A stretch of DNA of 34,168 bases, taken from IMG/VR virus record IMGVR_UViG_3300045996_000667, positions 91,546 through 125,713 of that record. The stretch is one strand, 5' to 3'. The notes below the pieces were generated by a model that did no database searches, was not told the origin of the DNA, and saw only the letters and a list, made by a program, of their open reading frames with translations. Source of the stretch: a virus. A program made the translations under genes and the position numbers. The first letter of the stretch is position 1. Each line of letters starts with the position of its first letter. Shown here one piece after another: positions 474 through 34,168 of this stretch.

Positions 474-531
474 TGCTAGAATCCTTTCGATGCGCTTATA
501 GCGCTATCAGGAATGTGATAAGTCCAGAGGG

Positions 532-1343: not shown

Positions 1344-1897
1344 TAGGCACGCTGCATTCTGCGCGTCGGCCTAAGATACTCACGCATAAGTTCCAGCGCC
1401 AACGGAGCGATCATGCTGCCCTGACCTCTGAACTCTTGACGGACCCTAGCCTGTCCTGCCGCTGCTGACTCTTCCTTGACGCCTGTTAGCTGTGTTGCGA
1501 TAGTCGCTTCATCAACTGACAGAAGGTAAATAGCCTGCTCGCACTGCGCGTCCTTGACATTCTGTGGAATGAACGCTTCGTCATCCACGTCGATGTCAAT
1601 GTTCCTAGGGAACTGAAGACGCTGACCCACCATCTGCCGATGGATGGTGATGTCATGTCCTGCATACGAAACCAGCGCGTTTGGCATTGCGCCACTGCCG
1701 TATTCCGTATCTAGGACTCGCAGCGTGTCGAGGATCTGCGTAGCACGTTTCAGCGCCATCTCCTTCTGGGCAGATGACAGGCCGGACCAGGCCTCCTGTT
1801 TTGCCGTCAGGTAATGGCTATTAAAGAACGTGTTAGCCTCTGTTAGAGAGACATAACTGTCCGATGTGCTTCCACCGATCGTATCGATCAGAGCCAT
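1343..1897 (-). CDS. Head-tail connector / adaptor protein (DnaT-like phage family)
   Basis: A 184-residue protein with the recognisable opening GGSTSDSYVSLTEANTFFNS. This is typical of a widespread phage adaptor family often labelled 'putative DnaT-like ssDNA binding protein'. The rest is mostly helical (QKEMALKRATQILD, VKDAQCEQAIYLL), as in HK97 gp6-type adaptors that extend the portal ring. It starts at ATG 1897 and its stop overlaps the next start. The gene is second after the capsid gene, where an adaptor is expected. The ssDNA-binding label is historic and probably not its job here; connection of head to tail is the better reading. Confidence 0.7.
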   Translation of the reverse strand: MALIDTIGGSTSDSYVSLTEANTFFNSHYLTAKQEAWSGLSSAQKEMALKRATQILDTLRVLDTEYGSGAMPNALVSYAGHDITIHRQMVGQRLQFPRNIDIDVDDEAFIPQNVKDAQCEQAIYLLSVDEATIATQLTGVKEESAAAGQARVRQEFRGQGSMIAPLALELMREYLRPTRRMQRA

Positions 1898-1919
1898 GTG
1901 TATGCTGCCACTGCGGGTG

Positions 1920-2198
1920 TTAGATCAGTTCGGCTTCGACTAGGATGTTGTAGACCGTTTCAGGAACTTCAACCGACTTGCCGCGCTCGATCTGATAGTT
2001 GTAGCCGTTGACTCCGACAATCTCGTACTTCGGCTCGTTCTTCTTCGCCGGCGAGAGACGGATGGTGAACTTCTGTTGCGCTGCCAGCAAATCCTTCGTT
2101 GACTGGCGAACCTGCTGCATGAACCCCTCAGTGATCATCTGTGGAGTAACTGTCGACGGCTGCGCCGCTGTGTTTACGATCTGTTCAGACTTTGCCAT
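1920..2198 (-). CDS. Small protein downstream of capsid, function unknown
   Basis: A 92-residue protein starting at ATG 2198, preceded by CAAGGAGAG on its own strand, which is a good ribosome binding site. The N-terminal third is a low-complexity Gln/Thr-rich segment. The C-terminal half (YEIVGVNGYNYQIERGKSVEVPETVYNILVEAELI) reads as a small beta domain. In many phages a short protein ending in a similar 'vPe.Vy.iL.qa' motif follows the capsid gene. The product may be a minor head protein. It is separated from the capsid gene by a hairpin at 2217-2242, so its expression is probably below that of capsid. Confidence 0.65.
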   Translation of the reverse strand: MAKSEQIVNTAAQPSTVTPQMITEGFMQQVRQSTKDLLAAQQKFTIRLSPAKKNEPKYEIVGVNGYNYQIERGKSVEVPETVYNILVEAELI

Positions 2199-2216
2199 TG
2201 CTCTTTCAAGGAGAGA

Positions 2217-2242
2217 GGGGCTAGCCGTTGCCGACTAGCCCC
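2217..2242 (-). terminator. Hairpin after the capsid gene (partial terminator or processing site)
   Basis: A perfect 8-bp stem (GGGGCTAG at 2217-2224 with CTAGCCCC at 2235-2242) with a 10-base loop lies 10 bases after the capsid stop codon. On the minus strand it is followed by TCTCTCCTT, a weak U-rich tract. It probably gives partial termination or protects the capsid message, so that the capsid is made in excess of the connector proteins. Confidence 0.65.
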
Positions 2243-2252
2243 GTGTCAGTTA

Positions 2253-3218
2253 TTACGCCGACACCGCGTGCTCGATGCGAAGGATCGCTAGCTGCTGCAG
2301 GATCACTGCAGAGTAGTAGGCCTTCCAACCAGACGTTGCGCGCTGGTTGAGCGGGTCGTTCCCGTTCACGCCGAAGCCCTTGATGATGTTCTCGATTCCC
2401 ATCGGAGAAATCATTCCGTAGGCATCCGCGCCGAGGATGATTGACGCATGCACGTCGATGCCAGCCGCACCAGCACCAGTGAACACGTGTGAGTTGTTGC
2501 TCAGAACGAAGCGAACGTCGTCAAGAGCGCCGACTTCGAACGGTAGGGTTCCGCCCGCTGATGTGCCGTAGGCCTCAACCGGAACAAATCCAGAAGCCGC
2601 CTTCAGGTCATACAGCGCGCTCGGACCAACGATGCCCACGTAGGCCGCGTTGACCGGCTTGGTGCCAACACCAGTCGAAGCGTTCAGAATCGACGTGATC
2701 TTGTTCACCTTGTTCGCCTGCATTGTGCGAACGGCCTTGCGGATTTCCACCGCTGTCAGCACGTCGCCAGCCGCCACGGTGATACGTGACACGCGGCTGT
2801 TCGCATACATGACGTTGGTGCCGGCAACCAGCACGTTCTTCGTGATCTGGTCGAGTGAGTTCGCAGCCTGCTCGGCAAGCACCTGCGTGAACTCGGTCAG
2901 AACCGGGTCCGGAGCAGTGAAGTCCAGGATGTCTGAGATCTCAACCCACGCACCGTACTGAGCCGGTGTCGAGGTGAGCTGGCTCACCGTCATCGCTGAG
3001 TCGCTCGGTGTCACGCCTTCGGTAAGAGCCGAAGTAGTGGCCGCCAGCGAGTCGAAGCGACGGAAGTTGACGCCCTGACCCTCGTGAGAAGGCATCGGAC
3101 GAACCTGTCCGAAGTTCATCCACACCAGACGCGGAAGAAGCCGCGCTAGCAGATTTCGGTCGTACCATGTGCGAAGCTCAGGAGACAGTGTTCCTGTAGC
3201 TGTAGTCTGAGTAGCCAA
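2253..3218 (-). CDS. Major capsid protein, N4-gp56 family
   Basis: A 321-residue protein that I recognise as the N4-gp56-type HK97-fold major capsid protein. Marks of the family are SPELRTWYDRNLLARLLP near the N-terminus, the EGVTPSDSAMTVSQ segment, the long helix LTEFTQVLAEQAANSLDQ and the C-terminal segment around SGWKAYYSAVILQQ. The start is TTG at 3218: no ATG is available in frame, and a strong AAGGAG sits 8 bases upstream. The scaffold gene is just upstream and the connector genes follow. A dyad (3232-3251) and a hairpin frame the gene. It forms the hexamers and pentamers of the head. Confidence 0.9.
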   Translation of the reverse strand: MATQTTATGTLSPELRTWYDRNLLARLLPRLVWMNFGQVRPMPSHEGQGVNFRRFDSLAATTSALTEGVTPSDSAMTVSQLTSTPAQYGAWVEISDILDFTAPDPVLTEFTQVLAEQAANSLDQITKNVLVAGTNVMYANSRVSRITVAAGDVLTAVEIRKAVRTMQANKVNKITSILNASTGVGTKPVNAAYVGIVGPSALYDLKAASGFVPVEAYGTSAGGTLPFEVGALDDVRFVLSNNSHVFTGAGAAGIDVHASIILGADAYGMISPMGIENIIKGFGVNGNDPLNQRATSGWKAYYSAVILQQLAILRIEHAVSA

Positions 3219-3231
3219 TGCTGTAACTCCT

Positions 3232-3251
3232 TACACAAATGACTTGTGTAT
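3232..3251 (+). promoter_or_regulatory. Dyad operator-like site, copy 1 (upstream of capsid)
   Basis: The sequence is TACACA-AATGA-CTTGTGTAT, one of six sites matching YACACR-N5-CKWGTGTAT. It lies in the gap between scaffold stop and capsid start. On the plus strand it runs into a perfect TATAAT (3249-3254), but there is no -35 hexamer. On the minus strand it forms a short stem (TACACAA/TTGTGTA) just before the capsid ribosome binding site. It may be a repressor site or a translation-control hairpin. Confidence 0.6.
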
Positions 3252-3263
3252 AATGTGTGTGCT

Positions 3264-4049
3264 TTACCGCTGGCGTTCGTACTGCTTAGCGATAACTCTT
3301 TCCGACTCTGCCTTGATCTCGTCAAGGGTCATCTTGGTGTAATCCTTCGAATCAGTTCGGCCCGTATCGAGCTTTCTCTGCTCCGAAGCTCCAGATCCCC
3401 CTGCGACCTCAGTTGTCGGTGCCTTAACCGTCCACGGCTTCTGCTTGGCATATTCCGCGACGTATTCCTCGAGCGTCATGGGTTCAAGATTCGTGTTGAG
3501 CCTTGGGTGACCAGTCTCTGGATTCATGACCACGATGCGGTCGCCGTCAGCCTTTAGAAAAGGCTCCATCTGCGAGAACTCGGACATACGATCAAAGAAA
3601 TTGAACTTGTCCGAAACCGCGATGTACTTTTCCTTCAGCTTGGCCTTGCGGTTCTGCTCAGCGGTCTGAGCCTCACGCTTCTCGGCCTCGGCCTTGTCCC
3701 TCTTCAGTTGCTCAGCGATGTTCTTGAACTCTTCAAGCTGCGCCTTGATCTGGAGGACGTCGTTATTGACTTCCGCAACCGTCGTCTTCTTCTCTGGCTT
3801 GACTTCCGGCTGTGGAGGCGTTTCAGTGGTCTTTCCCGCTGACTCCTTCACAGCTTTCAACTCTGCTTCCAGAGCCTTCAGCTTCTCGGCCGCTTCCGCC
3901 GCCGCTTCCTTCTTTGCCTTATCGAAGGCCTTTGCGAAGGTGCCGTTGATTAGTTCGTCAAGCTTCTTCTGCTGTTCCGCCGTGAACTCAACTTTCGTTT
4001 CTTTCTTACCCTCGACCGCGCCGTTGTCGGTCTGCTCGTTTTCCGGCAT
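3264..4049 (-). CDS. Capsid scaffolding protein
   Basis: A 261-residue, highly charged protein. Residues 15-130 are rich in Lys, Glu and Ala with coiled-coil heptads (FTAEQQKKLDELING, AAEAAEKLKALEAELKAV, AEQLKRDKAEAEKREAQ), and the C-terminal part is less ordered (TLDEIKAESERVIAKQYERQ). This composition is typical of phage scaffolds that nucleate the procapsid shell and leave or are cleaved later. ATG 4049 is the start. The gene lies between portal and capsid, the classical scaffold position. No protease signature is seen, so scaffold removal must involve another factor or exit without cleavage. Confidence 0.85.
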   Translation of the reverse strand: MPENEQTDNGAVEGKKETKVEFTAEQQKKLDELINGTFAKAFDKAKKEAAAEAAEKLKALEAELKAVKESAGKTTETPPQPEVKPEKKTTVAEVNNDVLQIKAQLEEFKNIAEQLKRDKAEAEKREAQTAEQNRKAKLKEKYIAVSDKFNFFDRMSEFSQMEPFLKADGDRIVVMNPETGHPRLNTNLEPMTLEEYVAEYAKQKPWTVKAPTTEVAGGSGASEQRKLDTGRTDSKDYTKMTLDEIKAESERVIAKQYERQR

Positions 4050-4109
4050 TTGATTCAGTTCCTATCTAGTTCCACTTGCGTGGGCCGCGCTAACCGGCGC
4101 GTACGGGTT

Positions 4110-5834
4110 TTACTTATTTGACCTGCCACCCTTGGCGCGTCTGTTGGCGTCAGGTGCAGATTCTTTGGTAGCGGCCTTACTGCCTGAGGCAGCGCCGATC
4201 CGCTTGTCTGTGCCGAGTTGCTTCTGAGATTTGCCCTGTTGTAGGTTGGATGTGGATGGCACACCCATTTCAGCCTTGATATCGGCTGGCGTCTTGAACA
4301 GGTCCTTGATGTCCTGGTCAGTCAGCTTGTCAATCTCTGCGAAGATCTTCTCGACTGTCTGGTGAGGAATCTTGCTGTCAAACTCTCGAATGACTCGCTT
4401 CCATTCCTCTCGCACGAAGGTCGGTGTCGTCAGCTTCACAGAGTTAAAAATCTGTGACAGCTGGAGCAGTAGGTCTAGGAGATTAGTAATGGAGTAGTCG
4501 TCCTTGTAGGACACCTTTCCATCCTCCCATTCCTTGCCCTGCATCTTCGCCCAGAGCACCATCACATTCTTCTCAACCTGTTCCAGCATGTCTGCTGTCT
4601 TGTTGATGACAGGGATGGTTCTGGAGAACGACTGCTTCTGTGCGTCACCGCTGCCGGCGTTCTTCCCCTTGAAGAGGTCGGACATGATGTCCTGCGCGGC
4701 CTGCCGATACATTTCGGCTACTGTCTTCTCACGCTCAGACTGGAGGAACTCAGCGGGATCGACAGGTGGTGAGAGATAGTCCGGCTTAACCTTGGCGTCG
4801 TCCGGCACTTCCAGCACTGAGCCGGTGCCGATGTCGCCTTCTACCTGGTCCTTCGTAGGGACGATCGAGCGTCCAGGGAGGACGAGGATATTGAAGCACT
4901 GCCGATACAAGAACTCCCCAACCAGGCTTGTCAGGTTGAAGGCGTGATTGTTCTGGTAGGCAATATCCTGTAGGAAGGACTGTCCGATATCCTTGTTCGA
5001 CTTCAGCCTCTTAAAGTAGGCCGGAATGAACGGTACAACCTTCCACGGATGGTTAGAGGGCCTTTTACTGATAATGCGCGGGTCGCGAGGGTCGGTGACA
5101 TCAATCTCCGACACCACAAACTGCGACGGTGTCCACTCGGTATAGCGCTCAATCAGACGGGTTGACTGTCCATCGAAACGCGAGAATGTCTGGCAACGCT
5201 TCAGGTATAGGAAGTTTCCGCAGGTATCTGTCGTCCAGTCGTAAACCTCAAGAGGCCTTACGTTGATCAGATACGGCAGGTCTAGACCGATTTCAGTTGC
5301 TCTCTGGACCGAGACTTCCTCCGGTGCCAGATTCTCCGGTAGAGGCAGTTTGTCGACATGAACATACGTCATGCCAAAGATGCGAGCATCTTCGCCAACT
5401 GCCTGCATGAAGGCATTCAGTGAGGTCCCTGATCGGTCGCAGTTCGCTAGAAACTGCTCGAAGGCGTTCTTCAGAGCGCCTGGGGCCTCGCGCTCGACTC
5501 CTTGGCTGAAGATGTATTCAGGCACGAAGTCAACGAGCGGCTGACAGTAGTTCTGGTAGTGCGCCCTGTCTAGGCGGGCCTGATAGTCAGACGCATGCTC
5601 CCTGCGATGCTTATGAAGCGTATCAGTCCCAATATACTTAGGACCGCCCTCATAGCTTTTTAGTAGGAAGCGCCAGTGGTCAGCATTGTCAAGGTAGTCT
5701 TCGCACTGGGACTGGAGGCGAATAATCTCCTCGAGTTCCTTCTGGCGCCTAGCCTCTTCTGCCGTCTGCTGCTGCTGCGTCGGCACGCTTGGTGCCACAG
5801 TCTGGACAGTGTTGACGGTTGGAAGTGACTGCAT
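4110..5834 (-). CDS. Portal protein
   Basis: About 574 residues. The protein forms the dodecameric ring at the packaging vertex. It has a Gln-rich N-terminus, then features common to long portals: HKHRREHASDYQARLDRA near the start, the FVPEYIFSQG clip region, a WKVVPFIPAYFKRLK stretch, and a helical section with QDIMSDLFKGKNAGSG and DDYSITNLLDLLLQLSQIF. The C-terminus is basic (KGGRSNK). The start is uncertain: ATG 5834 has no close ribosome binding site, and a TTG two codons upstream (5840) is also possible. The strong GGAGG at 5867-5871 lies 32 bases upstream and serves another short frame. Context: directly after large terminase, before scaffold. Confidence 0.85.
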   Translation of the reverse strand: MQSLPTVNTVQTVAPSVPTQQQQTAEEARRQKELEEIIRLQSQCEDYLDNADHWRFLLKSYEGGPKYIGTDTLHKHRREHASDYQARLDRAHYQNYCQPLVDFVPEYIFSQGVEREAPGALKNAFEQFLANCDRSGTSLNAFMQAVGEDARIFGMTYVHVDKLPLPENLAPEEVSVQRATEIGLDLPYLINVRPLEVYDWTTDTCGNFLYLKRCQTFSRFDGQSTRLIERYTEWTPSQFVVSEIDVTDPRDPRIISKRPSNHPWKVVPFIPAYFKRLKSNKDIGQSFLQDIAYQNNHAFNLTSLVGEFLYRQCFNILVLPGRSIVPTKDQVEGDIGTGSVLEVPDDAKVKPDYLSPPVDPAEFLQSEREKTVAEMYRQAAQDIMSDLFKGKNAGSGDAQKQSFSRTIPVINKTADMLEQVEKNVMVLWAKMQGKEWEDGKVSYKDDYSITNLLDLLLQLSQIFNSVKLTTPTFVREEWKRVIREFDSKIPHQTVEKIFAEIDKLTDQDIKDLFKTPADIKAEMGVPSTSNLQQGKSQKQLGTDKRIGAASGSKAATKESAPDANRRAKGGRSNK

Positions 5835-5940
5835 AGACAATATCGCCTATAGTCATAGTGACAGCACCTCCTCGTAACTGGCAGGGGTGTGAGAGCTATG
5901 TCCTATTCTGTCAACCTATTAGATTGATAGTTCGTGAAAA

Positions 5941-7293
5941 CTAGACGCCGGCGACCTGCCTGGACTTATACACGAACGGCGCTTCGTGGCAGATCCAGTT
6001 AGCTAGCGCTAGCGAAATAACGCAGTCGTCGTGGTAGCCTTCCGGCGCACTAAACTGGAAACGACCCTGCGAGGTCATGGTGTAGCCGTACATCTGGAGC
6101 TCGTGGATGAGCGTCTCGGCTATCGCCCTGAACTGCGCCCTCGACTGGTTATCTGGCTTGGGGATAGAGATTTCCCCTCGTTCAAACGCGAACTGCAGTC
6201 TCTGGACGAGAGCGACCTTCTCGGCGTTGTTGCAGATGTTGTAGCCGACTATGTGCGGGTAGACACCCTTGATCAGGTCGAACGGCACGTCACCTACGCC
6301 AGTGCTATCAACGCATAGCAGGGCGTTATTCCACAATCGAGCGGCGATGATGGCCCTGTTGGTCATCACGTTCCAGTCGTCGCCGTTATAGCGCTCGATG
6401 TGGACAACAGCTTTGCTAGCCACGTCCATAACTGTCAGGACGGTGTAGTCTTCCTGCTTGGCCCAGTCTACGCCGATGACATAGTTGCGGCCGATGATAG
6501 GCTTTGGCAGGATCTCTGACCGCTGACAGGTCTTGAGATTTCTGAACACGAGTGCAGAGTCATCTAGGAACTCTGCCAGGTATTCCTGACGGAACTGCAG
6601 GTCTGTCAGGTTGCGCTGGGCCTCCTCGATAGCCTCTCTCGGGATATGAGGATTGCTACCTGTCGGGAGCTGGTAGCTCTTGTATTCTGGGTGTTTCTTG
6701 CGCAGGCCCTCGATCGCACCCTTGCCGTCCCAGCCCTTCATGAACTCATCGAAGAACCAGTTGCGGCCCTTGGGCGTCGAGATGATGCGGAGCTTGCCTC
6801 GAGTTCGGGTCAGCGTGGTCCAGACCGACACAAAGGAGTCGCGGCTCCAGTAGCCGGCTTCGTCAATAACGGCGGCGTGGACGGCTTCGCCTCGCAGGCT
6901 GTCAGGGTTGTCAGCCGAACGAAACTCGATCATCGAGTAGGGCGTGCCGTCTGACCGCAGGAGGGTGTAGACCATCTCGTTGCGGTTGACACGCACTCGG
7001 CCGGACGACATCGGCGGCAGCCAACGGCCCATGATGTTGAAAGCGATTCGCGCCTGACGGAGTGTCGGCGCTGCCCACCAGTTGAGGCTCTGGTAGTGGT
7101 TCCAGGCGTGTCTGAGCAGCCAGATACACAGGCCGAATGTCTTGCCTGTCTTGGTGCCGCAAGCTGCTACGACGATACGCGTCTGGTCGTCAACGAACTC
7201 CCGCTGCCTCGGGTGAAGCGGCGGGAGTGTTAGTTGGATGAGCTTCTGGCGCTTCTTGATAGCGTCTGAAGTCTTGTCAGGTAGGAAATACAA
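5941..7293 (-). CDS. terL: Terminase large subunit
   Basis: A 450-residue packaging motor. The ATPase domain shows a Walker A motif GTKTGKT (residues 46-52) and a Walker B segment AVIDEA with D144/E145, followed by a coupling-type motif (RIISTPKGRNW). The C-terminal nuclease domain has the first acidic residue in VIGVDWAKQ (D276), the second in LLCVDSTG (D329), and a late Asp pair in YHDDCVIS. All the expected RNase H-like metal positions are present, so both activities look intact. No ATG is available; TTG 7293 is the first start after an in-frame stop, and it lacks a clear ribosome binding site. A dyad site lies just upstream at 7304-7323. Confidence 0.93.
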   Translation of the reverse strand: MYFLPDKTSDAIKKRQKLIQLTLPPLHPRQREFVDDQTRIVVAACGTKTGKTFGLCIWLLRHAWNHYQSLNWWAAPTLRQARIAFNIMGRWLPPMSSGRVRVNRNEMVYTLLRSDGTPYSMIEFRSADNPDSLRGEAVHAAVIDEAGYWSRDSFVSVWTTLTRTRGKLRIISTPKGRNWFFDEFMKGWDGKGAIEGLRKKHPEYKSYQLPTGSNPHIPREAIEEAQRNLTDLQFRQEYLAEFLDDSALVFRNLKTCQRSEILPKPIIGRNYVIGVDWAKQEDYTVLTVMDVASKAVVHIERYNGDDWNVMTNRAIIAARLWNNALLCVDSTGVGDVPFDLIKGVYPHIVGYNICNNAEKVALVQRLQFAFERGEISIPKPDNQSRAQFRAIAETLIHELQMYGYTMTSQGRFQFSAPEGYHDDCVISLALANWICHEAPFVYKSRQVAGV

Positions 7294-7303
7294 TGAGTCT
7301 TAA

Positions 7304-7323
7304 CACACGTGTATCGTGTGTAT
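7304..7323 (+). promoter_or_regulatory. Dyad operator-like site, copy 2 (upstream of terL)
   Basis: The sequence is CACACG-TGTAT-CGTGTGTAT, matching the six-copy dyad. It fills the short gap between the terL start and the stop of the preceding gene. No good promoter hexamers exist at the right spacing on either strand, so it may act as a binding site for a repressor or as a transcription block. Confidence 0.55.
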
Positions 7324-7332
7324 CCGGCGGGA

Positions 7333-7683
7333 TTACGCCTTGAGCGCGGCGACCTTGATCGTGGCTCCAGTGACTGAGAACGTCACCGTCACGTTGCCTG
7401 TCGTAACGTCGTTGAAACGATCCGTCGAGAACGGACCGATGATACGCTCCTGGCCAGCTGGAACAGACACCGTCAGGTCGTGAGCCGAGTTGGCCACGCC
7501 GAAGCTGCACGGGTTGTTGCTGGTCGGACCTGACTTCACCGTCACGGTGCATGAGCCCGCGTCAGTGCTGCGAACGTGCAGGAAGGTCTTGCCATCGTTC
7601 GGGAATGTGTCCGACGCGCTCGCGTTGGCGTAGGTCGGAGCCGCGCCTGTGGTTGACGGGCGCTGGAGAGTTAGAAGTGCCAT
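7333..7683 (-). CDS. Small beta-rich protein, possible head decoration protein
   Basis: A 116-residue protein starting at ATG 7683, with no signal peptide or Cys cluster. Nearly all of it is Thr/Ser/Val-rich beta strand (CTVTVKSGPT, HDLTVSVPAGQERIIGPF, GNVTVTFSVTGATIKVAAL). The segment 'sVPAGqeriIGPFs..rFnd' recurs in small phage proteins that sit near head genes, so a decoration or cement role is plausible. The gene lies between terL and a small unknown gene. I cannot assign a function from sequence alone; a virion protein is the best guess. Confidence 0.55.
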   Translation of the reverse strand: MALLTLQRPSTTGAAPTYANASASDTFPNDGKTFLHVRSTDAGSCTVTVKSGPTSNNPCSFGVANSAHDLTVSVPAGQERIIGPFSTDRFNDVTTGNVTVTFSVTGATIKVAALKA

Positions 7684-7686
7684 GTG

Positions 7687-7902
7687 TTAGTTCCTATGCT
7701 TGTAAGTTAGTAGGTCAATGGCGGGCACCGTTGAAGGCAGTGAGTATCCCACAGCCTCGGCGGCCACCTGTATCTCATCAACAGTCAGTGCTACCGATCG
7801 CAAGACTGCGGCAAGCGTGATCTCCGCTGCTACCTTGGTATCGAACCCGGCGTCCTTTAGGTAGTCGAACACACACACTAGCCCCTCGTCTTCTTCCATC
7901 AT
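7687..7902 (-). CDS. Small hypothetical protein
   Basis: A 71-residue acidic protein. The open frame extends further upstream, but ATG 7902 is chosen because it overlaps the stop of the lipoprotein gene as ATGA, the coupling used throughout this operon. The sequence begins MMEEDEGLVCVFDYLKDAG and continues with helices (AAEITLAAVLRSVALTVDEIQ). No metal site, membrane segment or known motif is present. It was not recognised. Confidence 0.5.
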   Translation of the reverse strand: MMEEDEGLVCVFDYLKDAGFDTKVAAEITLAAVLRSVALTVDEIQVAAEAVGYSLPSTVPAIDLLTYKHRN

Positions 7903-8465
7903 CTCGAGGCTTCCAGAAGTGTCTCGACTGCTGCGTCGATCTGGGTTTGGTATTGCAGGATCGTCTGGGCAGGATCTGGCCACCACGACAGGTAGTAGTA
8001 GGCCGAACGCCAAGACACGAGTCCGATGCGAGCGCAGTAGCCTTCTCCTACTGCCTCTGCGAAGACCTGGTTCTTGCTGAAGTCTTCGTCTATTTCTGTG
8101 GGCTGAAAGTAGTGACCCAGCTCATGGGCGAACGTGTTCACCAGCGCGTTGGGTGACAGCCCAGAACGAAGCTCTATCAGGGCTGGCTTGCCTTTCCAGA
8201 ATCTTCCGTATATCGGCGCGTCTTTCTCATTCACCAATCCGTCAACAATGACGACTTTGATGTTGCGAGACTCTGCAAATTCTAGGAGTGCGTCGTAATA
8301 CGACTCGTGCGAGTCTCCGTCGATCTGGCCGCGCTGGAACGCCACAATGCCGTTGGCCTCTTGCATGACTCGAAAGCCACCAGCCAGCGTGAATGCACCG
8401 TGCGAGCCGCATCCGACCGCCAGGAGGAGGACCGGCAGGAGAAGCAACCTTTGCACAATGTGCAT
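7899..8465 (-). CDS. Lipoprotein with HExxH zinc-metallopeptidase motif
   Basis: A 188-residue protein. Residues 1-19 are a lipoprotein signal peptide: a basic start, a Leu-rich core and a lipobox ending L-A-V-G-C (C19), so the mature protein should be lipidated. The catalytic domain contains TFAHELGHYF (H114, E115, H118) and a downstream Glu in VFAEAVGEGYC (E137) as the likely third zinc ligand. This layout resembles ImmA/IrrE-type and related gluzincin domains. It sits between putative small and large terminase genes and is coupled to the next gene by ATGA. A lipoprotein is exported, so the substrate should be at the cell envelope, or the protein may act after infection. The family is not certain. 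Confidence 0.7.
   Translation of the reverse strand: MHIVQRLLLLPVLLLAVGCGSHGAFTLAGGFRVMQEANGIVAFQRGQIDGDSHESYYDALLEFAESRNIKVVIVDGLVNEKDAPIYGRFWKGKPALIELRSGLSPNALVNTFAHELGHYFQPTEIDEDFSKNQVFAEAVGEGYCARIGLVSWRSAYYYLSWWPDPAQTILQYQTQIDAAVETLLEASR
8451..8465. repeat. TTGCACANTGTGCAA palindrome, copy 1 (one mismatch)
   Basis: TTGCACA-A-TGTGCAT covers the first five codons of the lipoprotein gene, so a bound protein or RNA fold would hide its start codon. One of five copies in the window. Confidence 0.5.
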
Positions 8466-8965
8466 TACTCAGATTTACTTTCGTCCTTATGGACTCCGCA
8501 TTCGCCAGCCTCAGAGACTGTGGCTACCCACTTCTCCTCGTCGGCGTTCATGTCGGCCAGCTCCTTACGGACCAAGCCAACTTCCTGTAGAGCGTTCCAC
8601 TTGTGCTGAAGGAGCTTCAGCATCACTTCCGTGAACTTTGCCTCGTTCGTTCCGCCTGATTCAGTCTCGTCCAGCCCCCGTTTGGTAATGGACATCAGAT
8701 CGTCTAGGTCCTTGAAGTGCTTGGCAACGAAGAGCATTGCGTATTTGGGTGTCAGCCCTCCTACGTATGTCTCGATCACTCTGCGCTTGTCAGACCTGAC
8801 CTGCTGCTCACTGACCCTGAAAATTCTGGCAAGGTCTGGAACGCTGATCTTCTTCTCACCAATCTCATCGAGATACTTGAGCACACGCCGGCGCTCTGGC
8901 GCTTTGAGCTTGCGCTCGCCAGACTTCGCTACTTCCCAGAGATCTTCTGCTGTGATGCGTGCCAT
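8465..8965 (-). CDS. Putative terminase small subunit
   Basis: A 166-residue protein starting at ATG 8965. Residues 20-65 look like a helix-turn-helix (RRRVLKYLDEIGEKKISV, LARIFRVSEQQVRSDKRRVIETY), followed by a helical region (FKDLDDLMSITKRGLDE) and an acidic tail with two Cys residues. DNA-binding N-terminus, helical centre and charged C-terminus match small terminase architecture, and the gene heads the packaging operon. The distance from terL (three small genes between) is unusual. Another DNA-binding regulator is the alternative. Confidence 0.6.
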   Translation of the reverse strand: MARITAEDLWEVAKSGERKLKAPERRRVLKYLDEIGEKKISVPDLARIFRVSEQQVRSDKRRVIETYVGGLTPKYAMLFVAKHFKDLDDLMSITKRGLDETESGGTNEAKFTEVMLKLLQHKWNALQEVGLVRKELADMNADEEKWVATVSEAGECGVHKDESKSE

Positions 8966-22143: not shown

Positions 22144-22983
22144 ATGCCAGAAACTGAAAAGTCTCGTCAGATAGCCGAACCGAACATTATCCTAAGAGTC
22201 GAGGTTGGTTCGACTGTCCACGGCGTCAGCCTCGAGGGAACCGACGACCGTGACGAGATGGGTGTGTGCCTTGAACCGCCGCACTACGTGGTCGGCCTCG
22301 GCTCCTTCGACCACTGGCAGTACCGGACAGCGCTGGAAAGGATGAAGGCAGCCCGAGAGGCCGGACAGGTCTTCCCACCTGACTACACACCTCGGTCAGA
22401 GCCTGGCGACCTTGACCTGATTGTCTATAGCCTGCGCAAGTGGGTCAGGATGGCTCTTAAGGGCAACCCGTCTGCCATGATGCTCCTCTTCTCACCAAAG
22501 TGCATCCACATCGATAAGTTCGGTGAGGAGCTGAGAAAGCTGGCACCCGCGTTCGCCTCTAAGAAGGTTGGCAAGGCGTATCTAGGGTATATGACCCAAC
22601 AGAAGGAGCGCCTGCTCGGCAAGCGTGGTCAGAGGGATGTCACGCGCAGGGAGCTGATCGACAAGTATGGCTTCGACACGAAGTACGCCTACCATGTCCT
22701 GCGCCTCGGCTATCAGGGCACTGAGTACATGGTGACAGGCTCTCTCGACCTGCCATTGGCTGACCATATCCGTCAGCACCTTCTCGATGTCAGGACTGGC
22801 AAGGTTACGCTGGTGAAGGTCGTGCAGGAGGCTGACGCCATCGAGAATCAATTGGAACTGCTGCTCGATGCCAGCCCGCTGCCAGACGAGCCACACACTG
22901 CCATCGTTGACCAGTTTGTCCAGGATGCCTACGCTGAGCACTGGGGCTGGTACCCTGATGCCGCTGTCAGGAACATGCGATGA
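22144..22983 (+). CDS. Predicted nucleotidyltransferase (polymerase beta superfamily)
   Basis: A 279-residue protein. ATG 22144 is chosen because AAGGAG lies 5 bases upstream; the open frame extends further without a better start. The N-terminus carries a nucleotidyltransferase signature: VGSTVHGVSL (GS at 22-23) followed by GTDDRDEMGV with the paired Asp at 35 and 37. The later part is helical (RKWVRMALKGNPSAMMLLF, YLGYMTQQKERLLGKRG, DTKYAYHVLRLGYQGTEYM), as in the RlaP-type family that phages often carry. Substrate is unknown; nucleotide transfer to RNA ends is one possibility. It heads the rightward accessory operon. Confidence 0.8.
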   Translation: MPETEKSRQIAEPNIILRVEVGSTVHGVSLEGTDDRDEMGVCLEPPHYVVGLGSFDHWQYRTALERMKAAREAGQVFPPDYTPRSEPGDLDLIVYSLRKWVRMALKGNPSAMMLLFSPKCIHIDKFGEELRKLAPAFASKKVGKAYLGYMTQQKERLLGKRGQRDVTRRELIDKYGFDTKYAYHVLRLGYQGTEYMVTGSLDLPLADHIRQHLLDVRTGKVTLVKVVQEADAIENQLELLLDASPLPDEPHTAIVDQFVQDAYAEHWGWYPDAAVRNMR

Positions 22984-23165
22984 CTGACAAGAACCTAGAG
23001 TTCTTCGCTGCTCTTGAATGCTACTACCCTCTCCAACAGCCGTGCAAGTCCTGCTATAAGCCAGGCTATGGCCACTACAGCATAAGCAGGATATGCGTCT
23101 CGTGTTATCACGCTAACGTGATACATCGCGTAGAAGAATGCGATATCTGCGGATGGAAACTCTAG
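22980..23165 (+). CDS. EFF-type mini zinc-ribbon protein 1
   Basis: A 61-residue protein starting ATGA-coupled at 22980. It begins MTDKNLEFFAALE, then has three CxxC pairs: CKSC (22-25), CVSC (39-42) and CDIC (54-57), the last two following the motif CVSCYH. It is the closest relative of the next gene, with the same spacing of Cys pairs and an identical 20-base DNA stretch. It belongs to the family described in the findings. Function unknown; size and Cys pairs suggest a metal-bound adaptor or nucleic-acid-binding protein. Confidence 0.75.
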   Translation: MTDKNLEFFAALECYYPLQQPCKSCYKPGYGHYSISRICVSCYHANVIHRVEECDICGWKL

Positions 23166-23291
23166 ACAAGAACGCAGAGTTCTTTATAGCGCTGCACGAC
23201 TTCCCGCGCCTAAAATTTCCGTGCTACAACTGCCACCAGCACGGGAATACTCATTGGGTCTGGGATGCCCAATGCGTCTCGTGTTATCACG
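23093..23291 (+). repeat. Pair of identical 20-base direct repeats
   Basis: Bases 23093-23112 and 23272-23291 are identical and encode the CVSCYH part of two neighbouring mini zinc-ribbon genes. Their 179-base spacing equals about one gene length, which marks a recent tandem duplication. Confidence 0.8.
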
Positions 23292-23347
23292 ACATAATGC
23301 GATCAGTCGGGGCTACGCAATGTCTAATATGCCTAGTGAGCCTGTAG
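23153..23347 (+). CDS. EFF-type mini zinc-ribbon protein 2
   Basis: A 64-residue protein. Start ATG 23153 overlaps the end of gene 1 by 13 bases; an upstream ATG at 23138 is also possible. The start METLDKNAEFFIALHDF mirrors TDKNLEFFAALE of gene 1, and the Cys pairs CYNC, CVSCYH and CLIC fall at the same spacing. It is a tandem paralogue of gene 1. Function unknown. Confidence 0.7.
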   Translation: METLDKNAEFFIALHDFPRLKFPCYNCHQHGNTHWVWDAQCVSCYHDIMRSVGATQCLICLVSL

Positions 23348-23577
23348 ACGAGTTCTGGGACGCGGTCGGGGCCACGTGGGCGAAGCTGCAATGCGGCCGA
23401 TGCGCTGGCGTGACGCCGTGGCGAATCACTGGAAATCCTTCTGGCTACGCCTTCGACTGCGCCTGTACCGTCTGCGGCCAATTTGGAATCTGGCCAAAAG
23501 AGCTATGGAAGATCATGGTAGAGAACGACTTGGACGATGTCGGTGTTGCGAGGCTTATGCTTAAAGATAGACTGTAG
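23320..23577 (+). CDS. EFW-type mini zinc-ribbon protein 3
   Basis: An 85-residue protein starting at ATG 23320 (overlapping gene 2). It begins MSNMPSEPVDEFWDAVG, then CGRC and CACTVCG, then a helical tail (ELWKIMVENDLDDVGVARLM) absent from genes 1 and 2. The N-terminal EFW motif links it to the family; sequence similarity outside motif and Cys pairs is low. Last gene before the ribonucleotide reductase promoter. Confidence 0.7.
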   Translation: MSNMPSEPVDEFWDAVGATWAKLQCGRCAGVTPWRITGNPSGYAFDCACTVCGQFGIWPKELWKIMVENDLDDVGVARLMLKDRL

Positions 23578-29504: not shown

Positions 29505-29534
29505 AAGGCCGATCATCGCGAGGTGGTCGGCCTT
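29505..29534 (+). terminator. Intrinsic terminator of the AT-hook-like gene
   Basis: AAGGCCGA (29505-29512) pairs perfectly with TCGGCCTT (29527-29534), followed by TACTTTTG. Located 5 bases after the stop codon and just before the next promoter. Confidence 0.85.
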
Positions 29535-29544
29535 TACTTTTGCC

Positions 29545-29573
29545 TTGACACACACAGAAACCTTGTGTATCGT
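29545..29573 (+). promoter_or_regulatory. Strong sigma70-like promoter with dyad operator, copy 6 (NAD operon)
   Basis: TTGACA (29545-29550), 17 bases, then TATCGT (29568-29573). The spacer holds CACACA-GAAAC-CTTGTGTAT (29551-29570), the third promoter-embedded dyad. It drives the operon that ends with the NAD salvage genes and zinc-ribbon proteins. Ribosome binding site AAAGGA precedes ATG 29607. Confidence 0.85.
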
Positions 29574-29792: not shown

Positions 29793-29953
29793 TGAGCATC
29801 ATCCGCCCTGATCGCATCAGAAACGTCACAAAGCACGATCTGGCAAAAATTGCCAAGCTGCTCACGCTTGTCGAGCACAACGCCGCCGACATCGCCGTCC
29901 AGCTCGAGGCTCGCAAGTACATCGACATGCTGCGAGAGATGTTCGAAGAATGA
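29792..29953 (+). CDS. Small helical protein (53 residues)
   Basis: Starts TAATG-coupled at 29792 and ends ATGA-coupled to the next gene. MSIIRPDRIRNVTKHDLAKI, then AKLLTLVEHNAADIAVQL, then a third helix ending EMFEE. A three-helix mini protein with no known motif. Tight coupling at both ends supports translation. Confidence 0.6.
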   Translation: MSIIRPDRIRNVTKHDLAKIAKLLTLVEHNAADIAVQLEARKYIDMLREMFEE

Positions 29954-30312
29954 TAGGCCTCCTGTTTGTAATACTGCTTGCCCTAGTGTACCTGTCCATC
30001 GTTGCAGATAGGCACACATCGAAGCTTGGCGAGCGAGTCAAAGACGTCGAGGCCACTAACAAGCGCATATTAGAGGCTATCCAACTGCAAGTCGCTCTGA
30101 ACGCTGACACCGAAAAGCGATTCAAGAACGTCGAAGCCAAGGGTGATACGGCGCAGCGCTCCATCTCTAGACTGGCCACCAACGTCAATGATTCCCTGTC
30201 AGTGGCTCAGCACAATGACGCAGAACTGCTAGCAGCTATCAAGCAACTGGCAGAAAAGACAGCTGAGCACTCGCTCCTCCTCATTCCGGAGAAAAAGATT
30301 GGCCATGCTTAA
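29950..30312 (+). CDS. Membrane-anchored coiled-coil protein
   Basis: A 120-residue protein. Residues 2-20 (IGLLFVILLALVYLSIVAD) are a single transmembrane anchor with no cleavage site. The rest is a long helix with heptads (LGERVKDVEATNKRILEAIQ, LLAAIKQLAEKTAEHS). The topology (N-terminal anchor, coiled coil) is like that of i-spanins or small phage membrane proteins, but no o-spanin partner is next to it. Overlaps the NadM start by 8 bases. Function unknown. Confidence 0.7.
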   Translation: MIGLLFVILLALVYLSIVADRHTSKLGERVKDVEATNKRILEAIQLQVALNADTEKRFKNVEAKGDTAQRSISRLATNVNDSLSVAQHNDAELLAAIKQLAEKTAEHSLLLIPEKKIGHA

Positions 30313-31195
30313 CGGCGTAGGCGTGATTATCGCCAGGTTTCAAGTCCCAGAGCTGACGTCGAATCACAAGGCACTGATCAAGCACGTCTCAAGCCGACAC
30401 GACGACGTTCTGGTGCTTCTCGGATGCGGCGCTCCAAGCAAGCGAAACCCGTTGCCGTTCCGTCTCCGCGAACAGATGGTGAACGAGCAGGGTTTAGCCA
30501 TTACCGTGCTGCCCATTCAAGACGGGCCTAGCGACGAGGAGTGGTCCCAGCGTGTCGACGGCATCATCTCAACGATCTACCCGTTTCGGTCTGTCACCAT
30601 CTACGGTGGCCCAGGAAGCTTCATCCCTCACTACAAGGGGCACTTTACGACTGAGGAAGTTGCCAGCTTCGATGGCGAGAGCGGGAATGAACTGCGCCAC
30701 GAAGTCCTCGAAAGCCAAGGCTACGGACAGGACTTCCGCCGTGGCGTGATCTGGTCACAGATGGCGCGCTTTGACAGGGCCTATCCGGTCGTTGACATCG
30801 CTATCTACGACCGTGATGCTGACGCCTTTCTGATGGCGCGCAAGCCTGTCGAAGCCAATACAACAGGGTATCGATTCATAGGAGGGTTCGTTGACCCGCG
30901 TGACTCTAGCCTTGAAGATGCGGCGATCAGAGAGACGAAAGAAGAGACAGGAGCTACGATTTCTGCTCCTACATATATTGGCAGCGTCAGGATCGATGAC
31001 TGGCGCTATCGCGGCTCAGGCGACGGGATTATCTCGTCAGTCTTCCTAGCAGACTTCGTTCCGACGCTTGATCGTGTCAAACCCAACGACGACATCATCA
31101 CGTTGAGGTGGGTTCCTAGGTGCAACCTGACCTATGAGGTCCTGCCGGTGCATGAGGGCGTTGCCAACCTCGTTCTGGAGAAGTTCCGCCGATGA
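30305..31195 (+). CDS. nadM: Bifunctional NMN adenylyltransferase / Nudix hydrolase (NadM-like)
   Basis: A 296-residue protein; ATG 30305 gives the usual start (GVGVIIARFQVPEL). Residues 4-170 are the adenylyltransferase that joins NMN and ATP to NAD+. The expected HxGH site reads T18-S-N-H21, so the first His and the Gly are changed, which could reduce activity. Residues 175-290 are a Nudix domain: FIGGFVDPRDSSLEDAAIRE then ETKEETGA, with the RExxEE core intact. The Nudix part typically cleaves ADP-ribose or related compounds. It is ATGA-coupled to the nicotinamide phosphoribosyltransferase gene; the pair rebuilds NAD+ from nicotinamide. Confidence 0.88.
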   Translation: MLNGVGVIIARFQVPELTSNHKALIKHVSSRHDDVLVLLGCGAPSKRNPLPFRLREQMVNEQGLAITVLPIQDGPSDEEWSQRVDGIISTIYPFRSVTIYGGPGSFIPHYKGHFTTEEVASFDGESGNELRHEVLESQGYGQDFRRGVIWSQMARFDRAYPVVDIAIYDRDADAFLMARKPVEANTTGYRFIGGFVDPRDSSLEDAAIRETKEETGATISAPTYIGSVRIDDWRYRGSGDGIISSVFLADFVPTLDRVKPNDDIITLRWVPRCNLTYEVLPVHEGVANLVLEKFRR

Positions 31196-32589
31196 TGTTC
31201 TCGTTTCCTGAGAAGACGGACAGCTACAAGGTATCGCACTACCGGCAGTACCCGCCTGGGACGACCTGCGTCTACTCGTACTTCGAGTCTCGCGGCGGCG
31301 TTTACCCTGACACGACCTTCTTTGGTCTGCAGGGAATGCTCAAGGACCACTTCGTCGGCCAGGTCCTTACACAGCCTGACATCGATGAGGCCGCTGACCT
31401 GTACGGTGAGCATTTCGGAGATCCTAACCTGTTTAACAGGGCTGGTTTCGAGCACATCGTGAACGACCACGGCGGCCATCTCCCGCTGTCCATCAGGGCC
31501 GTTCCTGAGGGCACGACAGTGCCTGTTAGCAATGTCCTGATGACAGTCGAGAACACCTGTCCGAAGTGCTACTGGCTGACCAACTTCGCAGAGACGCTGC
31601 TCGTCCAGAACTGGTACCCGACGACTGTCGCCACCCAGAGCCGACACCTGAAAAAGCTGATCCACAAGTGGCTGGTCCGCAATGGCACTCCTGAAGAGAT
31701 CGGCTTCAAGCTGCACGACTTCGGATTCCGAGGTGTCTCGAGCGTTGAGAGCGCGGCGATCGGCGGCGCTGCCCACCTTGTCAACTTCCTCGGAACCGAC
31801 ACCGTCGTAGCCCTCCGCTACCTGCGTCGGCGTTACGGCATCCGATGCGCTGGCTTCTCAGTGCCGGCGGCTGAGCACTCGACAATCACGTCTTGGGGCC
31901 GCGAGTTCGAAGCGCAGGCCTGCGACAACATGCTGGTGCAGTACCCGAAGGGCATCGTGGCTGTCGTCTCGGACTCCTATGACGTCTTTAACGCCTGCGA
32001 CAATATCTGGGGTGGCTCCCTCGTTAAGCGCGTCATGGCGAGGCCAGGAGTACTCGTCGTGAGGCCTGACAGCGGAACCCCAGAGGAAGTGGTCAGTCGA
32101 TGCGTCCACAGCTTCTACAACAACCCGCAAGTCGGCGGAACCGTGAATCAAAAGGGTTCCAAGGTGATATCGCCCAAGGTTCGGATCATTCAAGGCGACG
32201 GAGTCGACGGCGGTGCAATCGACGGGATCTACAGCCGCCTGCATTCAGAGGGCTTCTCGTCAGACAACGTCGGTTACGGGATGGGCGGCGCGCTGCTTCA
32301 GAAGCTGGACCGGGACACCCAGAAGTTCGCGTTCAAGTGCAGCCAGGTCGCCGGCCACTTCGGCTCCAGGGACGTCTACAAGGACCCCATCACCGACAGC
32401 GGCAAGCGCTCGAAGCGCGGGCGCCTAGCCCTGCGCAAGGGCATGTTGCATGAAGGCTTCTGGACGGACTCCCAGCAGAACAACCTGCTCAGAGATCGCG
32501 GTTCTGACCAGTTGGTAGAAGTGTTCAGGGATGGCCAGCTGCTAGTCGATGACAGCTTTGACAAGATCCGTGAACGCGCAGCCATCTGA
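31192..32589 (+). CDS. nadV: Nicotinamide phosphoribosyltransferase (NadV)
   Basis: A 465-residue enzyme that makes NMN from nicotinamide and PRPP. Family marks: MFSFPEKTDSYKVSHYRQYP at the start, YFESRGG, LHDFGFRGVSSVESAAIGG, VPAAEHSTITSWG with the phosphorylated-type His 229 (human H247), VVSDSYDVFNACDNIWGG, VVRPDSGTPEEVV for PRPP, and GDGVDGG. All are present and the length is typical, so the enzyme looks active. With the upstream NadM-like gene it forms the two-step NARP2-type pathway known from phages that resist NAD-depleting defence. ATGA overlap couples the two. Confidence 0.95.
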   Translation: MMFSFPEKTDSYKVSHYRQYPPGTTCVYSYFESRGGVYPDTTFFGLQGMLKDHFVGQVLTQPDIDEAADLYGEHFGDPNLFNRAGFEHIVNDHGGHLPLSIRAVPEGTTVPVSNVLMTVENTCPKCYWLTNFAETLLVQNWYPTTVATQSRHLKKLIHKWLVRNGTPEEIGFKLHDFGFRGVSSVESAAIGGAAHLVNFLGTDTVVALRYLRRRYGIRCAGFSVPAAEHSTITSWGREFEAQACDNMLVQYPKGIVAVVSDSYDVFNACDNIWGGSLVKRVMARPGVLVVRPDSGTPEEVVSRCVHSFYNNPQVGGTVNQKGSKVISPKVRIIQGDGVDGGAIDGIYSRLHSEGFSSDNVGYGMGGALLQKLDRDTQKFAFKCSQVAGHFGSRDVYKDPITDSGKRSKRGRLALRKGMLHEGFWTDSQQNNLLRDRGSDQLVEVFRDGQLLVDDSFDKIRERAAI

Positions 32590-32800
32590 CGAGTTCTTTG
32601 CAGCCCTGATACCAGGCCTAGGCTGTTCATACTGCCGCGACACCAAAATCTGGCCATACGCCTCAACAATGACGTCATGGGGCCGCCGATGGGCCTGTTC
32701 AAGATGTCTCCGGACTGTCAGGAACACCAACAATTTTATCAGTCTGGACAACGCTGTCCTTAAGTTTAAAGACGATGCCAAAGCCGGACAATTCGAATAG
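32570..32800 (+). CDS. EFF-type mini zinc-ribbon protein 4
   Basis: A 76-residue protein; start GTG 32570 (or ATG 32549) overlaps the end of nadV. It begins MNAQPSDEFFAALIPGLG, followed by CSYC and later CSRC. The central part is basic and Trp-rich (MTSWGRRWACSRCLRTV). Belongs to the EFF/EFW family. Function unknown. Confidence 0.65.
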   Translation: MNAQPSDEFFAALIPGLGCSYCRDTKIWPYASTMTSWGRRWACSRCLRTVRNTNNFISLDNAVLKFKDDAKAGQFE

Positions 32801-33014
32801 AACCTACCTCGAATGCCCATGCTGTGGGTGCGAGGGAGCTGAGTCAGACGCTGACGGCCTGTTCAACGACGGCCAGGAACTCATCTGCGGATGCCCTGGC
32901 TGGGTGACAGCCGATGGAGACGGCGATGAAAGCTGGGCGTGGATCAATACCGGCGACGAGCCGTGCCAGCAATGCGAGGGCGAGTGTCAGACGAATTCTG
33001 GGACGAACTCCTAA
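32775..33014 (+). CDS. Acidic zinc-ribbon protein without EFF motif
   Basis: A 79-residue protein. Cys pairs: CPCCGC, CGC, CQQCEGEC. It is rich in Asp, Glu and Gly (GAESDADGLFNDGQ, TADGDGDESW). It overlaps both neighbours. It lacks the N-terminal signature of the mini family but sits inside the cluster. Function unknown. Confidence 0.6.
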   Translation: MPKPDNSNRTYLECPCCGCEGAESDADGLFNDGQELICGCPGWVTADGDGDESWAWINTGDEPCQQCEGECQTNSGTNS

Positions 33015-33226
33015 GTCTAAAGATCTGGTGCGCCAGATGTAATAGGCAGACCAAGCACCTTCCAAGCCAGTTACCAACACTCTCGCCATACAGGGATTAC
33101 GAACGGTACGACTGCTCTAACTGCAACTGCACGTGGGTACTGGTAAAAGGTGAAGAGGTTCTGCATCAGAACACGGGCTGGAGACACAGCATCGACTTCG
33201 GGCACGACATCAATTGGGGCGAGTAA
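32984..33226 (+). CDS. EFW-type mini zinc-ribbon protein 5
   Basis: An 80-residue protein starting at GTG 32984 (GAGGG upstream), overlapping the previous gene. It begins VSDEFWDELLSLKIW, then CARC and CSNCNC, then a C-terminal region ending DINWGE. The EFW motif and Cys spacing place it in the mini family. It couples to the peptidase gene as TAATG. Confidence 0.65.
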   Translation: MSDEFWDELLSLKIWCARCNRQTKHLPSQLPTLSPYRDYERYDCSNCNCTWVLVKGEEVLHQNTGWRHSIDFGHDINWGE

Positions 33227-33519
33227 TGAACTGGGACTACCACAAGCAGCGCCTACTGGACGGCAAGACCACGTCATTTCGGCCTAAGGGCAACAGCATG
33301 GCTCCTCGCATCCTGTCCGGCCAGCTCGTCGTCCTCGAGCCTGCGCACGAGACGTACATCGAGGTTGGCGACGTAGTCTTCTGCAAGGTCGGTGGCAACT
33401 TCTATGTCCACCTTGTCAAGGCTATCCAGGATGGCAGGTTCCTCATAGCCAACAACAGAGGCCACATCAACGGCTGGACAAAGGCCGTCTATGGCAAGCT
33501 GAAACTCCTAATGCCATGA
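33226..33519 (+). CDS. Stand-alone S24/S26-type peptidase domain
   Basis: A 97-residue protein; ATG 33226 overlaps the upstream stop as TAATG. It consists of only the peptidase fold shared by LexA, UmuD and signal peptidase I: RPKGNSMAPRI (nucleophile S24), then LVVLEPAHETYIEVGDVVFC, then YVHLVKAI with the candidate general base K65 (41 residues from S24), then FLIANNRGHINGW. No helix-turn-helix or transmembrane segment is attached. Possible roles: cleaving or mimicking a repressor, or an antirepressor. The sequence does not say which. Confidence 0.75.
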   Translation: MNWDYHKQRLLDGKTTSFRPKGNSMAPRILSGQLVVLEPAHETYIEVGDVVFCKVGGNFYVHLVKAIQDGRFLIANNRGHINGWTKAVYGKLKLLMP

Positions 33520-33920
33520 AAGTGCTCTGTTGCGGTAGCAGAAACTGGAGCCTGAGGACGCCTATCCAAAGGGCCCTGTCAAACCTGAAGAACTATGATG
33601 GAGGCGATGATCGTGACCTGTTCTTCCAGTCGCTGGACATCACTCACATCGAGATAGTGCATGGCAACGCTCTCGGCGCTGATTCGCTCTGCGACTACTA
33701 CGCGCGAAAACTAGGCTACCTCGTTCACCGCCACTCGGCAGACTGGAAAAAGCACGGCAAGGCTGCCGGTCCTATCAGGAACCAGGAAATGCTTGATAAG
33801 CATCCTGACATCTGCCTTGTGCTGGCATTCTCTTGGAATCTGTCAGAAAGCAAAGGCACGGCTGACATGGTTCGCAGGGCCACGAAGAAAGGCATCCCTG
33901 TCAAGGTTATCAGTGGCTGA
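33516..33920 (+). CDS. SLOG-fold protein (YspA-like, DUF2493 type)
   Basis: A 134-residue protein of the SLOG superfamily: VLCCGSRNW (7-11), IVHGNALGADSLCDYYARKL (G-x-A-x-G-A-D at 50-56), SADWKKHGKAAGPIRNQEM and SKGTADMVRRATKKGIPV. SLOG domains bind nucleotide-derived ligands, including NAD-related compounds in Thoeris-type systems. Here it stands alone, two genes downstream of the zinc-ribbon cluster after nadV. Ligand sensing or sequestration is a hypothesis. ATGA-coupled at its start. Confidence 0.82.
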   Translation: MKVLCCGSRNWSLRTPIQRALSNLKNYDGGDDRDLFFQSLDITHIEIVHGNALGADSLCDYYARKLGYLVHRHSADWKKHGKAAGPIRNQEMLDKHPDICLVLAFSWNLSESKGTADMVRRATKKGIPVKVISG

Positions 33921-34125
33921 CAACGACGAGTTCTTCTTCAGCCTCATAGAATCAATTGGTGGATGCCAGATAGTGGAAGCATATTGCCCGCGCTGCAAGG
34001 CCATGGGGGATCACGACAAGAAGCTCTACGGAGAGCCTCTTAGGTGTGCATACCTTTGCCGCCGCTGTGGGCTTCTAGAAGACTTGCCAAACTCGAAATT
34101 CCTAACATATGGACAGTTCTACTAG
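33913..34125 (+). CDS. EFF-type mini zinc-ribbon protein 6
   Basis: A 70-residue protein starting at GTG 33913, overlapping the SLOG stop by 8 bases. It begins MADNDEFFFSLIESIGG, followed by CPRC and CAYLCRRC. It belongs to the mini family. Overlaps the next gene at its C-terminus. Confidence 0.65.
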   Translation: MADNDEFFFSLIESIGGCQIVEAYCPRCKAMGDHDKKLYGEPLRCAYLCRRCGLLEDLPNSKFLTYGQFY

Positions 34126-34168
34126 TTCCGAGGAATTCTTCGGCGCATTGGCGATTAGGCTGAACGTC
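34109..34168 (+). CDS. EFF-type mini zinc-ribbon protein 7, partial
   Basis: ATG 34109 opens inside the previous gene and the frame runs off the window after 20 codons. It reads MDSSTSSEEFFGALAIRLNV. The EEFFGAL signature matches the family start, so the cluster continues beyond the window. The Cys pairs are not yet visible. Confidence 0.55.
   Translation, partial: MDSSTSSEEFFGALAIRLNV

Follow-up and report, generated by a model that had tools for sequence, protein, structure and literature searches.

NadM and NadV genes of a putative NARP2-type NAD+ salvage unit, and a nearby SLOG gene, in an uncultured phage

Genes of the locus

Bacterial defences that deplete NAD+ are widespread, and phages counter them by restoring the coenzyme; Osterman et al. 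2024 (cited in PMC12774641) is reportedly the experimental paper on NAD+ reconstitution. Here we consider a candidate locus of this kind in a stretch of 34,168 nucleotides (hereafter, the window), which is the final 34 kb of the 125,713-base record IMGVR_UViG_3300045996_000667 of an uncultured virus. The locus comprises the gene of a NadM-like protein with a Nudix domain, the gene of the nicotinamide phosphoribosyltransferase NadV and, further downstream, the gene of a SLOG protein. The first-pass annotation had described the first two as a NARP2-type NAD+ salvage pair, and had proposed the SLOG protein as their partner.

The predicted NadM-type bifunctional nicotinamide mononucleotide (NMN) adenylyltransferase/Nudix hydrolase (296 aa) is encoded on the plus strand at 30305-31195, from an ATG at 30305 to a stop at 31195. 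It is joined to nadV (31192-32589, plus strand, 465 aa) by an ATGA overlap at 31192-31195, exactly as had been noted. The SLOG gene (33516-33920, plus strand, 134 aa, YAcAr family) starts 926 bases after the nadV stop on the same strand, in agreement with the earlier figure of about 900 bases. The interval is filled by three small zinc-ribbon-type open reading frames (ORFs) and an ORF of an S24-type protein, all on the same strand and mostly overlapping; another ATGA overlap joins the S24 ORF to the SLOG gene. The sole plus-strand terminator-like match in the interval is weak (32746-32759), and no convincing terminator was seen there. Since these same-strand genes mostly overlap and are interrupted by only this one weak match, we infer that NadM, NadV and SLOG likely belong to one operon, which had earlier been taken as given.

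NadV and the NadM-like protein

The NadV product is recognized by NF006629 (545 bits at a cut-off of 405, E=1e-163) and phrog_448 (E=1.7e-144), and matches solved NAMPTs with E=1e-136. The NAMPT catalytic motifs HDFGFRG, GTDT, AAEHST, VSDSYD and RPDSG are all kept in the alignment to a solved NAMPT, so the active site is intact, as had been claimed. These matches identify 31192-32589 as encoding a true NAMPT-type nicotinamide phosphoribosyltransferase, NadV.

The Nudix domain of the NadM-like protein passes the PF00293 cut-off (E=7.5e-14), and the Nudix box REUxEExG is present as RETKEETG, with the catalytic RExxEE intact. The N-domain is recognized weakly (phrog_395 cytidylyltransferase, E=5.6e-6). 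However modest this match, the AlphaFold (AF2) model, built from 61 sequences, has the full two-domain fold with a predicted local distance difference test score (pLDDT) of 95, and the top six solved chains found by Foldseek are all bifunctional NMN adenylyltransferase/ADP-ribose pyrophosphatases (2R5W, 2QJT, 2QJO). The NadM family profile aligns with 2QJT over both domains (E=2.5e-26), and with 2QJO likewise in both domains. The protein also keeps R11, H21 (the second His of the HxGH-like motif), R55 and R131, which we take to be the counterparts of the ATP-binding residues of archaeal NMNAT.

The NadM-like protein shares the two-domain NMNAT-Nudix architecture and fold of bacterial bifunctional NadM (2QJO; 2QJT and 2R5W from Francisella), but the identity is only 16-20% over the fold alignment, the HxGH motif is a variant, and PG stands where both solved bifunctional NadM proteins have K-D. 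It is related by fold to bifunctional NadM and lies, by score, outside the PRK05379 equivalog. Adenylyltransferase activity is likely but not certain, while action of the Nudix domain on ADP-ribose is plausible, because RExxEE is intact and the nearest solved relatives are NMNAT/ADP-ribose pyrophosphatases.

Linkage of NadM and NadV in related viruses

Relatives of the NadM-like protein were represented by the best 80 of 171 viral-contig relatives, five annotated phage records and the window, which gave 66 clusters at 90% identity. A NadV/NAPRTase-family gene was present in the 8-kb flanks for 63 of the 66 clusters. Such linkage argues strongly that the N-domain would act on NMN or on nicotinic acid mononucleotide (NaMN), and its conservation marks the NadM-NadV pair as a real NARP2-type unit; together with the fold and the NadV family it upholds the first-pass annotation on this point. 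Only five annotated phage records, four of them uncultured, have this NadM subfamily. Through this subfamily, so far seen in a single isolate, NAD+ salvage appears to be common among large uncultured phages.

In the relatives L010-L094, genes between NadM and NadV or just after them encode NADAR (4), Macro (3) and phosphoribosyl pyrophosphate (PRPP) synthetase (2), and ADP-ribosylglycohydrolase, NAD synthase and nucleoside deoxyribosyltransferase-like proteins (3) are also found nearby. As predicted from their domains, these neighbours fit an ADP-ribose/NAD+ theme. Glutamate-synthase-like domains (4) were unexpected members of the same neighbourhoods. The record of the window itself has no Macro or NADAR genes, and its only Nudix domain is that of the NadM-like protein.

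Both the pairing and its proposed purpose have precedents. Iyer et al. 2022 (PMC9503650) proposed that phage NadM and NadV act against NAD+ depletion, reported that phages with NadM invariably have NadV, pointed out NADAR neighbours, and found NadV to be the most widespread among these enzymes. In comparison with NARP2 of the Vibrio phage KVP40, NadV here is 42% identical to KVP40 NadV and has the catalytic residues expected of a NARP2 enzyme, and the NadM-Nudix protein and KVP40 NatV share a superfamily (profile E ~1e-7 per domain); however, natV and nadV of KVP40 are approximately 43 kb apart, whereas here the two genes are adjacent and ATGA-coupled. KVP40 also has a YAcAr SLOG gene (L327:1818-2189, KVP40.0155), situated 3.8 kb upstream of natV. 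Since six genes separate the two and nadV is 43 kb away, we did not count this as linkage.

We consider it most probable (roughly 0.7) that NadM and NadV form a NARP2-type NAD+ salvage unit keeping up the NAD+ level against host NADase defences. Host NADases (TIR, SIR2 and similar) would release nicotinamide and ADP-ribose; NadV would convert nicotinamide and PRPP to NMN, which the N-domain of the NadM-like protein would adenylate to NAD+, and the Nudix domain might hydrolyse ADP-ribose or trim NAD+. In this way the presumably co-transcribed pair would maintain NAD+ in the infected cell despite the host NADase.

The SLOG protein

The SLOG protein matches PF10686 (YAcAr) with 41.9 bits at a gathering cut-off of 28.2, and phrog_289 with E=1e-27. 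Its AF2 model has a Rossmannoid fold with a pLDDT of 91; by E-value the nearest solved folds are Cam1 (CARF domain) and DprA, and DprA gives the top TM-scores, 0.68-0.71. The protein is thus predicted to bind a nucleotide, and possibly to cleave it. The comparison with Thoeris made in the first-pass annotation finds no specific support: ThsA shares the SLOG superfamily, but the SLOG protein here is standalone and belongs to the YAcAr family, and the 50 best solved folds for the model do not include ThsA. We therefore rejected a Thoeris-type identity, as the nearest solved folds are Cam1 and DprA and not those of ThsA or the STALD type. With PADLOC, NadV, the SLOG protein and the S24 protein had no match, and the Nudix domain had a single weak candidate that carried no name.

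If the SLOG protein served the NAD+ unit, its relatives should tend to lie near nadV. SLOG relatives in viral contigs were searched both with the window SLOG alone and with an alignment of the SLOGs that are found between NadM and NadV in other phages (see below). NadV was found within 8 kb of none of the 24 closest viral-contig relatives of the window SLOG, and in the set built from NadV a SLOG gene lay within 8 kb in only 2 of 79 loci. On this count a functional partnership in this phage, as it had been proposed, is not established.

SLOG genes within NadM-NadV loci of other phages

Co-occurrence was nevertheless seen in a different form. The gene order NadM-SLOG-NadV, with YAcAr SLOGs of one clade, occurs in 11 distinct lineages of uncultured phages, as counted after dereplication at 95% NadM identity (loci L035-L040 without L038, L051, L054-L056, L061, L076, L086, L092, L094, L206, L217 and L220). 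In 8 of these 11 lineages NadM and SLOG share 4 nt, from the start of SLOG to the NadM stop; in most of the 11, NadV starts no more than ~40 nt after SLOG. Two further arrangements were found: in L058-L060, which are one lineage, a YpsA-type SLOG lies between NadM and NadV, and in L050 a SLOG gene follows NadV at 16 nt.

The phage of the window does not belong to this group, as its SLOG gene is placed outside the pair, 926 bp after NadV, and belongs to another clade. In the tree, the window SLOG and those of the 11 lineages are split by a branch with 99/96 support, and common ancestry of the window SLOG with that clade was rejected on this ground. Being on the other side of this branch, the window SLOG is an independent case; thus, SLOG genes presumably joined NadM-NadV loci more than once. 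The earlier expectation of co-occurrence hence holds for a separate clade inside other lineages, but not for the relatives of the window SLOG. As for novelty, the general idea had already been published: viral SLOG and Nudix domains were proposed as counters to ADP-ribose signals (PMC9503650). We found no description of the NadM-SLOG-NadV arrangement in the literature searched, which is not proof of its absence.

Possible roles of the SLOG protein

Two explanations of the SLOG gene downstream of the pair were considered. The somewhat better one is that it is unrelated to the pair, being an accessory gene that many phages have (frequently annotated as DprA-like) and that was caught in a hypervariable zinc-ribbon array and acts on DNA or another nucleotide. 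Phage records that match the window SLOG are numerous (859, of which 421 from Mycobacterium phages), and the four phage SLOG neighbourhoods that were read contained no annotated NAD genes. Moreover, the SLOG gene is coupled to the S24 ORF and to a zinc-ribbon gene rather than to NadV, two haplotypes of the region differ both in gene content and in SLOG sequence, and the best solved folds include DprA, as described above. Neighbours in such a fast-changing region are not necessarily partners, which weakens the link with the pair. Against this explanation stands the repeated presence of SLOG genes inside the NadM-NadV loci of other lineages.

The other explanation, which we regard as tentative, is that the SLOG protein acts as a functional third part of the system: it would bind or cleave an ADP-ribose immune signal, whether cyclic or linear, and the pair would then rebuild NAD+ from the product and nicotinamide. 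The clade inside NadM-NadV in 11 lineages with its mostly 4-nt NadM-SLOG overlaps, the arrangements in L058-L060 and L050, the repeated joining of such loci by SLOG genes, and the ADP-ribose-processing neighbours in relatives all speak for it, as do the published SLOG prediction and the precedent of RyDEP, a signal-degrading RyR-domain glycosidase that is inserted in the mycobacteriophage NARP1 operon and feeds NAD+ synthesis (PMC13232231). RyDEP resembles the present case as an extra nucleotide-signal gene in a phage NAD+ reconstitution operon, but it is a RyR-domain glycosidase in NARP1, whereas here a SLOG gene lies near a NARP2-type pair; an insertion truly inside the pair is seen only in the NadM-SLOG-NadV loci of other lineages, not in this phage. 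A SLOG translationally coupled inside an operon that rebuilds NAD+ would play in NARP2 the part that RyDEP plays in NARP1, and would offer a functional hypothesis for the YAcAr SLOG proteins, whose role has so far only been predicted.

The counts for the closest SLOG relatives and for the NadV-based loci oppose a third component. So do seven relatives outside the 11-lineage group, whose YAcAr match lies in another part of the record and never beside NadM. In addition, one SLOG gene placed at random in 125 kb would fall within 1 kb of NadV with a probability of ~2% and within 5 kb with ~8% (a rough estimate), hence the nearness in this phage could arise by chance at roughly 2-8%. Service of the SLOG protein to the NAD+ unit is unproven, because its gene lies in a variable zinc-ribbon array and its relatives have no nadV neighbours, and for this phage the case is weak. 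More doubtful still is the general proposal that SLOGs in or beside the NadM-NadV loci of phages remove immune signals of the ADP-ribose type, by cleavage or capture, and so feed NAD+ resynthesis, forming a three-part NARP2 that was assembled more than once, with a looser independent version here.

Atypical features of the adenylyltransferase site

Several observations weigh against reading the NadM-NadV pair as an NAD+ salvage unit, and most of them concern the N-domain of the NadM-like protein. In place of HxGH it has TSNH; among the 66 clusters the first position is H in 57 and T in 8, the second H is kept in 59, and the N of TSNH is unique. The segment YGGPGSF corresponds to YG[SG]RDSF in nearly all clusters (R in 63/66, D in 64/66), and the variant is matched, partly, only by the divergent L087. 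The SGTxxR motif is represented by SGNELR, with N for T/S. The NCBIfam NadM equivalog model (PRK05379) gives 48 bits, far under its cut-off of 397. Finally, the source is one contig of an uncultured virus.

These changes at near-invariant N-domain positions next to an intact Nudix box, and the many phages that have NadV without NadM (PMC9503650), would fit a protein that has lost adenylyltransferase activity and acts as a Nudix ADP-ribose/NAD(H) hydrolase, host NadD or NadR completing NAD+ from the NMN made by NadV, but we consider this unlikely, given that R11, H21, R55 and R131 are retained, that 8 of the 66 clusters share T for the first His, and that the model shows the full two-domain fold with high confidence. 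A TxGH motif occurs in enzymes such as PPAT. The divergent relative mentioned above (L087:7986-8894), a NadM-Nudix protein, also lacks the R of the R-D pair as well as the SGTxxR motif, and is possibly a degenerate adenylyltransferase.

Neighbouring genes and the zinc-ribbon array

Other genes in the window are those of a phage: portal, terminase large subunit, major head protein, ribonucleotide reductase and DHH phosphoesterase. Upstream of the pair, a consensus scan alone revealed a terminator-like hairpin of 13 pairs (29505-29534, plus strand) and a sigma-70-like promoter match, TTGACA-17-TATCGT (29545-29573, plus strand), which likely mark the upstream edge of the operon. The gene just 5' of the NadM-like gene (29950-30312, plus strand) overlaps its start.

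The genes between NadV and SLOG are all on the plus strand. A zinc-ribbon protein with the EEFF motif (32570-32800) has a GTG start that overlaps the nadV stop; it is followed by a small Cys-rich, zinc-ribbon-like ORF without the motif (32775-33014), an EEFF-type protein with the motif SDEFWDEL (32984-33226), and the S24-type peptidase-domain protein (33226-33519; PF00717, E=2e-8). One more EEFF-type gene (33913-34125, plus strand) overlaps the SLOG stop by 8 nt. Thus, of the cREC-like protein and zinc ribbons reported earlier near the pair, the zinc ribbons (most of the EEFF type) were recovered together with the S24 protein, but no cREC-like protein was found in the interval.

In approximately 34 small proteins of this phage, divergent zinc ribbons come after an N-terminal (S/A/N)(E/D)EFFxAL motif, and many of their genes are tandem and overlapping. 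Besides the members listed above and the stretch at ~22960-23350 of the window, they occupy record bases 120-8800 (L002) and are found also in L003, L004 and L007, with over half of the ~34 genes in the first 9 kb of the record. The pattern is absent from 4.0 Mb of comparison viral loci, and a search with a DNA pattern for the family gave only single matches, none of them to an N-terminal zinc-ribbon array; the scanned EEFF proteins have no Pfam or PHROG match of weight (that at 32570-32800 has none), and with one member as a query no convincing phage homologue was found. The motif resembles a common tag for interaction or targeting, carried by the members of a lineage-specific expansion.

The record ends overlap, window 32789-34168 with L002 1-1567, as two haplotypes of one region, hence the first 9 kb of the record continues the end of the window. 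The haplotypes are near-identical over ~186 bases, which are followed by a replaced segment and then by 62-100% identity per 100 bases; in one of them the SLOG gene has diverged and an additional EEFF gene is present. A circular or permuted genome is thus probable, with variation between strains exactly at the SLOG and zinc-ribbon genes. A tyrosine-recombinase-like ORF, recognized by eye, adjoins the zinc-ribbon array on the minus strand (L002:1922-3037).

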